Part shown: positions 44,009-49,690 of the stretch, in pieces | Position numbering within the stretch: the stretch's first letter is position 1 | Layout of the letters: each line of letters opens with the position of its first letter | Source: Sulfuriferula sp. | Lineage (GTDB): Bacteria > Pseudomonadota > Gammaproteobacteria > Burkholderiales > Sulfuriferulaceae | Length of the DNA: 64,000 bases | Assembly (NCBI GenBank): GCA_013140765.1 | Contig: JABFSE010000010.1 | Location: 1 to 64,000 of the forward strand | Direction: 5' to 3' | Notes under the pieces: generated by a model | Told to the model about the DNA's origin: nothing | Seen by the model: the letters and a program-made list of their open reading frames with translations, nothing else | Databases searched by the model: none | Position numbers and translations under genes: made by a program

Positions 44009-45364
44009 TTATTTTTTCAAACGATTAGTTACATATAATCGGCGTACCTGTGCGTCAACGCTATCTTGTGCAAAATGAATGCTGAGTTTGGCATTCAGAT
44101 CTAGCTGTTGCGCGTTGTGGATGATGTCGCCATGCTCATTGCGCACCATCGCATAGCCGCGTGCGAGTACGGCGGTGGGGCTGAGGTGGTGTAATTCATT
44201 GCGGGTATGTTGGATGAAAGTCTGGTGTTGGTTTAATAGGTGCTGCATAGCACGGTGCATTTGTTGGGCGGTGCGCGTTAATTGTTGTTGGTAAGGCGCG
44301 ATGTCAGGGCGTTTTAAGCGTAGCTTGAGCTGTGCTTGTTGACCGTTGCGTTGTTGCAATATGGCGTGATGGGCGAGGCGTAAGCGTGATGCGAGTTGCT
44401 CGGTGTGTCGCTGTTGTGTGTTAATGCGCTGACCTGGGTGGACTAAACGTGCGGCAAGATGCTGGTATTGCTGTTGGCGTTGTGCGAGTTGCTGGCGCAT
44501 TTGGCGATTGAGTCGCGCTTGGGATAGGTCTAGCGTCTGCAATAACTGATTGCGATTAGGGCACGCTAGGGTTGCCGCTGCAGTTGGCGTAGGCGCGCGT
44601 AAGTCACTGACAAAATCAGTGATGGTGAAATCAGTTTCATGCCCCACGCCGCTGATGATGGGGAGTGGGCTGGCGGCGACGGTACGCGCTACTTGTTCAT
44701 CATTAAATGCCCATAGGTCTTCTATACTGCCACCGCCTCGGCAAATAATCAGCACATCACATTCACCACGTTGATAAGCTGTATTCAAGGCATGGACGAT
44801 TTGCGCAGGTGCAGTACCACCCTGAACCTGGCACGGGTAAATGATAACGGGCAAGCTGGGCATAAGCCGATTAAGCGTGGTCAGCACATCACGCAGGGCG
44901 GCGGCTTGCGGCGAGGTGATAATGCCGATGCGATTGGGCATAGCGGGCAGGGTGCGTTTGCGGGTGTTGTCGAATAAGCCTTCTTGTTCTAATTTACGTT
45001 TGAGCTGTTCAAATGCAGCAAATAGCTCACCCAACCCAGCACGACGTAAGTTTTCGACTTGCAATTGGAAATCGCCGCGTGGCTCATACAAACCTGCTGT
45101 GGCGCGTATTTCAACTTGCATACCGTTTTCAGGTAGCCAGTCTATGAACTGATTGCGCCCGCGAAACATGACGCATTTGACCTGTGCTTGCGCGTCTTTC
45201 AGCGAAAAATACCAGTGCCCAGAGCTGGCGCGAGTGAGGTTGGAAATCTCACCCGCCACCCAAGTGAGCGGAATGTTGCTTGCCAATGTTTGCTGTACCC
45301 AGCGATTAAAGTGACTGACGCTGAGGATGGGGGCGGCTGGCGTGTTGGTTAAGATGTTTGTCAA
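44009..45364 (-). CDS. xseA: Exodeoxyribonuclease VII large subunit
   Basis: A 451-residue XseA, the catalytic subunit of the single-strand exonuclease. An OB-fold N-terminal domain (about 15-115, with [20 protein letters not shown]) is followed by the catalytic domain with [20 protein letters not shown] and [18 protein letters not shown]. The helical C-terminus is unusually Gln- and His-rich. The small subunit xseB is not nearby. Confidence 0.96.
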
Positions 45365-45842
45365 GGATTTTCCACTGTGTAGGTAAATTGAATTTATTTT
45401 TTAATAAAAAACTTGACGTGATGTTTATTTATTATGTGCATGATTATAAATGATTTATTTATATGTCAAAATTTAAGCAGCCGTTAAAATTCGTTATGAG
45501 CGGGTAACTTAGCGTCTAGTTGAACACATTATCCACAAAGTTATCCACAGAAAATGTGGGTAAGCATAAAATATCCTTACAGGGGCTAGAGTTAGCGATT
45601 AAGTTAATACATCGACATCTCGCTTGGCGCTACTAGGCTTGCGTTACCCACACCTAAAATAAATTTTCATTAAAGCGCAATAATTAGCTTGACGATGCGG
45701 ATTATTTATAACTGCATGATAGATAAGCAAATTTTGTTTGACTAAAAAATACGCCGTTGCTAAAAAGCTATACAGGCGGTTAAGTTAGCGTTCGCGCCCA
45801 CACATTACCCACAAAGTTATCCACAGAAAATGTGGGTAAACC
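45365..45842. promoter_or_regulatory. Noncoding segment with seven DnaA-box-like 9-mers in two matching clusters
   Basis: Boxes matching TTATCCACA or TTACCCACA lie at 45529-45537, 45541-45549, 45555-45563 (inverted), 45644-45652, 45805-45813, 45817-45825 and 45831-45839 (inverted). The first and last triplets have identical layout (box, 3 bases, box, 5 bases, inverted box) and form a 40-bp repeat with one difference. An AT-rich stretch (about 45400-45475) adjoins. The architecture is that of a DnaA-binding locus: an origin, a titration site like datA, or a reactivation site like DARS. No dnaA or dnaN gene is near, so origin status is open. Confidence 0.75.
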
Positions 45843-47436: not shown

Positions 47437-47551
47437 GATGTGAGCGTGGAACGATAGAAGCGTGAAGTGTAATCAAAAGTGCTTAGATGAGCAAATAAGG
47501 CTGATTTGGTTTTGTGTAATAAATGCGCTGAGGGCGGGTTTTTAGGATGAA

Positions 47552-47629
47552 TTAGGGGCGGCTGTGTGACTCAACATACGCATCAACTAAACGCCGTATC
47601 ATGCGCTGGTACTGCGTATGGTTTTTAGA
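47552..47629 (-). other. Minus-strand gene tail of unknown origin at the IS boundary
   Basis: The minus strand encodes [20 protein letters not shown] and a few more residues to a stop at 47552. The frame upstream is merely the antisense of the IS remnant. The pattern resembles the C-terminus of small antitoxin or CopG-like proteins, but that is weak. It may be the end of a gene cut off by the mobile element. Confidence 0.3.
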
Positions 47630-48066
47630 CGCTTCACGTCGCATCATGCGAGAGCTGAACATCAAACCCATCTGGAAGCGCAAGTTCGTCAACACCACAG
47701 ACAGCAAACACAACCTGCCTGTGGCAGATAACTTGCTGAACCGTGAGTTTAATCCCAGCGCACCCAACCGCGCCTGGACATCGGACATTACCTATATCCG
47801 CACGCGTACAGGCTGGTTGTATGGGGTAATTGTTGGGATAATGCCGCTATGGAACGCTTTTTCCTGAACTTAAAGATGGAGCGAGTCTGGCAAAGGGATT
47901 ATGCGAACCAGATGGAGGCAAGCAAGGACATCGTGGACTATATCGTCGGCTTTTATAACTGCCTGCGGTTACATTCCACCTTGGGCTACACTTCACCGAT
48001 TAACTATGAGCAAGATATGGCAGCTAAACAACCTAGCGGGGTGTCTGAAATTACTTGACCACTACA
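47630..48066 (+). mobile_element. IS3-family element remnant with internal deletion (copy 2)
   Basis: The remnant begins within OrfB at about [19 protein letters not shown], continues through [20 protein letters not shown] (first catalytic Asp) to TGWLYG, then jumps in another frame to [12 protein letters not shown] (the catalytic Glu) and on to the OrfB stop. The segment with the second catalytic Asp is absent. The right end at 48066 (terminal CA) is the same as in copy 1. OrfA, the left end and the left inverted repeat are missing. On its right it abuts the start of an integron cassette. Confidence 0.85.
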
Positions 48067-48076
48067 CCTTTGAAAG

Positions 48077-48597
<521 letters not shown>

Positions 48598-48601
48598 CTC
48601 A

Positions 48602-49219
48602 TCATTTAATTGCCCCCGACATGAGTTTTGAAACTGCGGCCTCGGTTTGATTGCTTGATTGGCTCAACGCTTCAATCACGCGCTGCTGATCTTCAATCGG
48701 GCGGTTTTGACTGAGTTTGAACTTGCCCTGAATGTCCGTGACTTCGATTTCAAAGCCCACAATCATGTTGAGAAGTTTTGTGCGCCGTTCACCCGCAAGG
48801 TTTGGTTCCCACGGGCTTGGCATGTGAGACTCATAAACATGGGTTAGCCGTTCAACCAAGGCTTCAAGCTCGGACTCGCTTTCGATGAGCCGGGGTTTTC
48901 CGCGCAGGTGAACCACTGCGTAATTCCATGTTGGAACGCCAGGCGACGAATACCACGAAGGGGAAACATAAGCATGTGGCCCTTGGAATACAGCCAGAAC
49001 CTCACTGCACGATGAAAAGTGCTGCCATTGCGGATTTGCCCGCGCCATGTGGCAGAGCAGCTTGCCTTTGGAACCTGCGGCGTGGTCAAAGATGAAGGGC
49101 AAGTGACTAACGAAAGGCACGCCATCAGGAGCAGTGACCAACATCCCGAAGGAATTGCCTTCAACGAGCGTCGAAATACGCTCTGGATTTGTTTCTTTGA
49201 AAAACTCTGGGATATACAT
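48602..49219 (-). CDS. PaiB-like FMN-binding protein (integron cassette gene)
   Basis: A 205-residue protein of the PaiB/FMN-binding split-barrel family (annotated as negative transcriptional regulator). It opens MYIPEFFKETNPERI, and has FVSHLPFIFD, LLCHMARANPQW, VFQGPHAYVSPSWY and WNYAVVHLRG, the blocks that form the flavin-type pocket. The function in cassettes is unknown; a flavin-dependent detoxification enzyme is one option. No Shine-Dalgarno sequence is evident; expression probably relies on an integron promoter to the right. Confidence 0.88.
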   Translation of the reverse strand: MYIPEFFKETNPERISTLVEGNSFGMLVTAPDGVPFVSHLPFIFDHAAGSKGKLLCHMARANPQWQHFSSCSEVLAVFQGPHAYVSPSWYSSPGVPTWNYAVVHLRGKPRLIESESELEALVERLTHVYESHMPSPWEPNLAGERRTKLLNMIVGFEIEVTDIQGKFKLSQNRPIEDQQRVIEALSQSSNQTEAAVSKLMSGAIK

Positions 49220-49227
49220 GGCTGATG

Positions 49228-49300
49228 AGCTCTAACGTTTAATAGACACCGAAATCGGTGTCTATTTTATTTAGTAAATCGGTGTATAACACGTAAATTT
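49228..49300 (-). promoter_or_regulatory. Candidate integron attI site with a perfect 12-bp inverted repeat
   Basis: On the minus strand AAACGTTAGAGC (around 49228-49239) gives the G-TTAGAGC crossover point that starts the PaiB cassette. Just outside lies the perfect palindrome AATAGACACCGA-AA-TCGGTGTCTATT (49241-49266), which in the plus direction is followed by T-rich sequence and could double as a terminator. No second core is seen where an attC would end, so attI is the better reading. Confidence 0.5.
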
Positions 49301-49441
49301 TCATTTTTACGCCTCATAAAAAATTATTTCTATTTGTTATTGTAATATGAAATGATATTGTTTATTAAAGAAAAATATCAGCAATTGCGTTAAATAACAA
49401 CATCTAATTCACAAACAGAATATATAAATAGGCAACGATAT

Positions 49442-49600
49442 ATGGTCGAAATAAATACACCTGTTAGCGGCTCGCCTAGGCTACTGGATCAGATCCGTGG
49501 TCTCATCAGGGTGATGCGCTACACCCACATGTTGAGCATACGTATTTAGCCTCGATTAAACGCCATATTCTATTCCATGGCAAGTAGCCGCTTTAGCCGA
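49442..49600 (+). pseudogene. intI: Integron integrase remnant
   Basis: From ATG 49442 the frame encodes SPRLLDQIRGLIRVMRYTHM then a TAG at 49547-49549. In another frame (49543-49584) it continues as YLASIKRHILFHGK and a stop. Integron integrases begin with a block of the type LLDQVR-IR-KHYS-RTEQAYVDWIKRFILFHGK, and both pieces fit it in order, with a frameshift and small deletion between. Nothing further of the catalytic domain is seen before miaA. The orientation, divergent from the cassettes, is exactly that of intI. The family call is by eye. Confidence 0.7.
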
Positions 49601-49690
49601 TGGCGGCGGTGTTGGCTGTATTAGTTAGTGGCGCGTCGCAAAAACAGCCTAGCGCAAACAGGTTACAATGCTGTTTTTATCTGAATAGCG

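Follow-up and report, generated by a model that had tools for sequence, protein, structure and literature searches.

What role does an ordered cluster of DnaA boxes play next to xseA, where no gene for replication initiation adjoins it? The question arises from a 64,000-nt stretch of the genome of a Sulfuriferula sp. (contig JABFSE010000010.1 of assembly GCA_013140765.1; source genome 2.18 Mb, labelled G000), referred to here as the window. A first-pass annotation had claimed seven DnaA boxes in 311 bases between xseA and purT, and with a limit of one mismatch to TTATNCACA we recover exactly these seven within 311 bp (45529-45839), at 45529 (+), 45541 (+), 45555 (-), 45644 (+), 45805 (+), 45817 (+) and 45831 (-), in the intergenic region from the start of xseA (45364, minus strand) to the 3' end of purT (45843). 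The outer boxes form two triplets of 35 bp, each consisting of a box, 3 bp, a second box, 5 bp and an inverted box, at a spacing of 276 bp. They are held in 40-bp direct repeats (45524-45563 and 45800-45839) with 98% identity, which agrees with the near-identical repeats of two direct and one inverted box described earlier. The annotation was also right that no replication-initiation gene adjoins the site, dnaA being located on another contig (G000:C36). An eighth, weaker box, absent from the earlier list, is found at 45368-45376 (+) and belongs to the arrangement, the parts of which are as follows.

44009-45364, minus strand: xseA; the site is conserved next to this gene
45368-45376, plus strand: distal direct DnaA box of module 1, TTTTCCACT, weak, 161 bp before triplet 1
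45433-45445, plus strand: IHF-like site of module 1, TATGTGCATGATT, two mismatches to YAANNNNTTGATW, at -96; a weak copy
45484-45512, plus strand: flanking motif copy 1, approximately AAAANCCTT...ACTTAG, before triplet 1
45529-45563, plus strand: triplet 1, DARS-core-like, with boxes at 45529-45537 (+), 45541-45549 (+) and 45555-45563 (-) and spacers of 3 and 5 bp
45569-45597, plus strand: flanking motif copy 2, approximately AAAANCCTT...ACTTAG, after triplet 1
45644-45652, plus strand: distal direct DnaA box of module 2, TTACCCACA, at -161; the middle box of the earlier annotation
45709-45721, plus strand: IHF-like site of module 2, TAACTGCATGATA, one mismatch, at -96, read from the module display
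45762-45790, plus strand: flanking motif copy 3, approximately AAAANCCTT...ACTTAG, before triplet 2
45805-45839, plus strand: triplet 2, with boxes at 45805-45813 (+), 45817-45825 (+) and 45831-45839 (-)

Taken singly, the motif TTWTNCACA shows no enrichment in the window (10 seen, 8.6 expected), and hence it is the order of the boxes rather than their number that is special. That this order is far from random, as had been proposed, is supported by the gapped triplet (at most three mismatches), which occurs twice in the window and in none of 100 dinucleotide shuffles. A dispersed repeat had been named beforehand as one refuting outcome; it is ruled out by the count for the whole 2.18-Mb genome, which holds three triplets, two in the window and a third at G000:C19:12953. 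No match to a known RNA was found in Rfam.

Since a distal box, an IHF-like site and a triplet occur in both modules, the seven boxes amount to one module present twice in tandem, the first copy being completed by the weak box at 45368. At the position of this box, the alignment of genus members shows TTTTCCACAG. The double module is also present in four relatives of the genus (G012, G013, G014 and G015) with triplets spaced by 275 or 276 bp; outside the core, modules 1 and 2, compared within each genome, are 47-59% identical in register. We regard it as an even bet that the intergenic region is a tandemly duplicated chromosomal DnaA-regulatory cassette, to which DnaA and IHF would bind.

The triplet is widespread among relatives, being found in 49 of 61 related genomes searched, where a reversed control pattern gave none, and in 118 of 150 genomes of the order, with zero reversed patterns in every genome. 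When triplet coordinates were compared with xseA and hemE matches, 77 of 176 placed triplets were 5' of xseA, all 77 on the strand opposite to the gene and mostly 140-460 bp from the start of the match, while 34 were 3' of hemE. So that the sample would not be selected for the pattern, regions were then fetched without reference to it: 80 from upstream of xseA, covering about 45 families of the order, and 40 from downstream of hemE. A double box (at most four mismatches) is present in 70 of the 80 xseA-upstream regions, always on the strand opposite xseA, so the conservation check in relatives that had been suggested comes out positive: the triplet is kept at the same gene throughout the order, and the second refuting outcome named beforehand, a lack of conservation between close relatives, does not apply. 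An inverted third box follows exactly 5 bp on in 53 of these 70, while no other spacing tested gave more than one; it is missing in about a quarter of xseA-linked sites, which counts against a reading as DARS. With offsets counted from the first box of the triplet and TAAnnnnTTGATW used as the IHF consensus (PMC8682772), an IHF site lies at -93 to -101 in 54/70 xseA and 24/27 hemE/priA regions, against a background of 4-5% in windows of equal width, and a direct DnaA box lies at -158 to -181 in 36/70 and 23/27, respectively, against 1-2%. It should be noted that these counts were not turned into probabilities because related genomes are not independent. Taken together, the DnaA boxes here form a cassette that is real, conserved and not dispersed; its core has the geometry of DARS, and an IHF-type site lies at a constant distance from it.

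The flanking motif has its own positional preference, with AAAANCCTT at -45 in 27 of the 70 xseA regions and ACTTAG at -25 in 31; it recurs order-wide at -45/-25 and also at approximately +35 to +60. Matches to the Fis consensus, which is too loose to be decisive, are weakly enriched near -65 to -70. The source genome encodes both an IHF-alpha gene and an Hda-like protein. Among the other genomes, G196 carries unusually many triplets, six on contigs C12 and C13 and all on the plus strand of the contigs, and G164 carries five; G042 (C11), G086 (C1) and G132 (C1) have same-strand triplet pairs about 27-28 kb apart, away from xseA and hemE.

Comparison with E. coli places the triplet close to the DnaA-reactivating sites. 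By the published definition, DARS1 and DARS2 share one spacing of their three boxes, with box I opposite to boxes II and III (PMC5742627), and the window triplets have precisely these features, three boxes at fixed spacing with box I inverted. On its minus strand DARS1 reads TAATACACA-TGG-TTATCCACA-GGAAT-AGTGGATAA, a 9-3-9-5-9 geometry identical to that of the window triplet, and in DARS2 this geometry occurs twice on the same strand at a distance of 316 bp, as a good and a weak triplet (L136 2136-2170 and 2452-2486), which recalls the same-strand pair in the window. At the position of the third box DARS1 and DARS2 match 7/8, whereas nrdA, polA, purH, oriC, mioC and datA match at most 4/8, so that, within E. 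coli, an inverted third box distinguishes DARS well from other sites. The double boxes of the nrdA, polA and purH promoters are likewise direct and 3 bp apart, but no inverted box follows at 5 bp (1 or 2 of 8 positions match), and within 200 bp of the double box there is no IHF-type site.

The flank of the core departs from DARS2 to some extent. DARS2 activity needs one or more IHF sites in the flank, which also contains Fis sites. The IHF site of DARS2 is on the same side and in plus orientation at -87, while the IHF-type site here is at about -97, one helical turn further; the IHF-like sites of the window, both weak with two mismatches and one, are 10 bp off the DARS2 offset and fall within the interval at which the order-wide consensus recurs. 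The direct box at about -162 is present in the window modules and absent from DARS2. The genomic neighbours of DARS1 and DARS2 (uvrB, mutH) differ from those here, and the module here is duplicated whole at 276-bp spacing. Published work reports DARS2 to be conserved among the gammaproteobacterial relatives of E. coli (PMC4245941, PMC8682772), and in the open-access literature we did not find the xseA and priA sites described outside E. coli relatives. Homology to the E. coli xseA-guaB spacer was considered, DnaA binding having been reported at guaB, and rejected, as the spacer contains no triplet even at nine mismatches; the E. coli stretch with the hemE start gave no triplet either.

The layout around the core brings datA into the comparison. 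In E. coli datA, box 2, the IHF site and box 3 are at -162, -97 and 0, all on one strand; in the cassette the distal box is at about -161 to -167 and the IHF site at -96 to -98 relative to 0, all in one direction, so that direct boxes flank a single IHF site at intervals agreeing within 0-6 bp. Function of datA is reported to need box 2, the IHF site and box 3 at their intervals (PMC5742627, PMC4585315). The predicted IHF and distal-box spacing fits datA, a DnaA-inactivating site, better than it fits DARS2. Conversely, datA, which lies by glyVXY-queG, has no DARS core (4/8 at the third-box position), with 3 bp separating its two proximal boxes, box 3 (+) and box 4 (-), in contrast to the inverted box at 5 bp kept in 53/70 xseA sites. 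The low-affinity box 7 of datA is essential and too degenerate for scoring across families. In its predicted elements, the site is a composite of a DARS core and a datA layout.

In other betaproteobacteria, the space between hemE and priA holds another conserved copy. In this genus (G000, G012, G013 and G015) the sister copy is inverted between the convergent hemE and fau, with priA not adjoining, and since no gene starts there a promoter function is unlikely at that position. Outside the order, the triplet occurs in 96 of 115 genomes of the gammaproteobacterial class; the IHF and the distal-box positions each recur in 19 of 29 gamma loci, and in at least 10 of 28 loci (L263, L271, L272, L273, L275, L278, L280, L287, L288 and L289) the cassette is immediately upstream of priA, recognised by Pfam. 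A tblastn search of the gamma loci with the E. coli genes neighbouring DARS and datA gave no match, while the xseA controls worked. The DARS-core cassette with its fixed-distance IHF-type site is accordingly present in most of the beta and gamma families sampled and in two neighbourhoods, xseA and priA.

The two neighbourhoods have kept different parts. Among genomes that are related to one another, the third box is retained more often at xseA (53/70) than at hemE/priA (14/27; p 0.03) and, with the same relatedness, the distal box more often at hemE/priA (23/27) than at xseA (36/70; p 0.002). In the relatives that could be placed from near-complete contigs, some of whose lengths are rounded, the xseA site is usually mid-arm at about 0.5-0.8 of the replichore, with outliers at 0.17, 0.92 and 0.99 (the point for G068 being the position of the gene); for the hemE/priA site, three of five lie near the origin (0.04-0.06) and the other two, G021 and G068, far from it. 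For comparison, E. coli DARS1 at 0.66 overlaps the range of the xseA site, and DARS2 at 0.41 does so more loosely. These small numbers from related genomes give hints that the xseA site may be DARS-like and the priA site datA-like.

We favour the reading that the window holds a DnaA-reactivating site resembling DARS2 but laid out like datA, to which we give a probability of roughly one half; the direction of the reaction and any effect on initiation timing are inferred. The earlier proposal of a DARS or datA locus thereby gains support on anatomy, from the DARS-core geometry, the datA-like spacing, the order-wide conservation and the count of only three copies in this genome. Each module would run from a distal direct DnaA box over about 65 bp to an IHF bend site and, 96 bp on, to the triplet of DARS geometry, that is, box III, 3 bp, box II, 5 bp and the inverted box I. 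We propose that the triplet would bind ADP-DnaA, that the DnaA molecules bound at boxes II and I, which face each other head-to-head, would make contact through their AAA+ domains and so release ADP, and that the apo-DnaA, once set free, would take up ATP. A bend introduced by IHF could let the distal box and its DnaA join or regulate the complex on the triplet, and the presence of two modules might double the capacity or permit joint action.

If the site instead acts like datA, IHF would bring the distal and proximal boxes together, ATP-DnaA arranged head-to-tail would hydrolyse its ATP, and DnaA would be switched off after initiation. The box-IHF-box spacing agrees with E. coli datA, and the sister copy at hemE/priA, near the origin in three of the five relatives placed and with the distal box kept more often and the third box less often than at xseA, would suit such a role. 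However, E. coli datA does not have the third inverted box at 5 bp that is strongly kept at xseA, and the usual place of the xseA site is mid-arm rather than close to the origin. We see inactivation as a possible function of the locus, though on the unlikely side. Somewhat more speculative, and in our judgement unlikely, is the idea that distal box, IHF site and triplet represent an ancestral two-way switch of the DnaA nucleotide state, set by IHF and by which boxes are filled and present at beta and gamma xseA and priA, such that E. coli datA, DARS1 and DARS2 would be its specialised fragments and the tandem copy in this genus a further, two-module variant.

Passive titration, in which high-affinity boxes would hold DnaA in proportion to gene dose and leave its nucleotide unchanged, could draw on the strong double box in each module, in line with the preference of E. 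coli DnaA for double boxes 2 or 3 bp apart (PMC11317965). Titration alone, however, leaves three fixed features unexplained, namely the inverted third box, the position of the IHF site and the single orientation, and we consider it distinctly unlikely. A DnaA-responsive operator of xseA, and of priA at the other locus, would be attractive in that both genes serve DNA repair or restart and directly adjoin the site over wide phylogenetic ranges, and repair and nucleotide genes are under DnaA regulation in E. coli (PMC11317965). Against this, the sister copy of this genus between hemE and fau faces no gene start, and the orientation of the cassette is opposite at the two genes (towards priA, away from xseA), which means that its parts are fixed relative to one another and not to a promoter; regulation of the neighbouring gene appears improbable.

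The annotation had also raised the alternative of an unexpected origin, and several clustered DnaA boxes with AT-rich flanks are indeed a likeness to oriC. Here, however, there is no adjoining replication gene and no change of skew, and the conventional dnaA-linked box cluster lies elsewhere, upstream of dnaA on C36, where the genes have the usual order rnpA-dnaA-dnaN-gyrB. GC skew, computed over the window and complemented by dnaA distances in relatives with near-complete contigs, has one sign (positive) throughout; in G014 (main contig 3.36 Mb) a distance of 799 kb, or roughly half a replichore, separates dnaA from the xseA site, and most placed relatives have this site mid-replichore. The marks of oriC, namely a GC-skew minimum, replication genes and a single site per chromosome, are thus not those of this locus, and a present or former chromosomal origin is very improbable. 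A functionless mobile repeat or a cluster formed by chance, for which only the duplication itself speaks, can hardly be entertained given its absence from shuffles and reversed-pattern controls, the three copies in the genome and the conserved position and spacing. Separately, on a 10-kb contig of the same genome (L116 3711-4156, G000:C22), a Rep-like ORF is directly followed by three TTATCCACA boxes in 446 bp, probably the origin of a plasmid or an integrated element.

If the preferred reading as a reactivating site is true, control of the DnaA nucleotide state would be an old and shared system, and replication-timing control may be older and wider than work on E. coli suggests. The locus offers exact, deletable sites in organisms whose replication timing is little studied, and the paired sites, usually mid-arm at xseA and origin-near at priA in some genomes, would with their different kept parts allow a direct test of on and off functions.

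Apart from the DnaA boxes, about 2.2 kb of the window between a Sel1-like gene and miaA (47437-49690) looks like an insertion. Judged by eye, it contains part of an IS3-type transposase gene (47601-47867) and two ORFs, one VOC-family-like (48131) and the other FMN-binding-like (48602), and in G012, G013 and G015 the Sel1-like gene and miaA are only about 150 bp apart.
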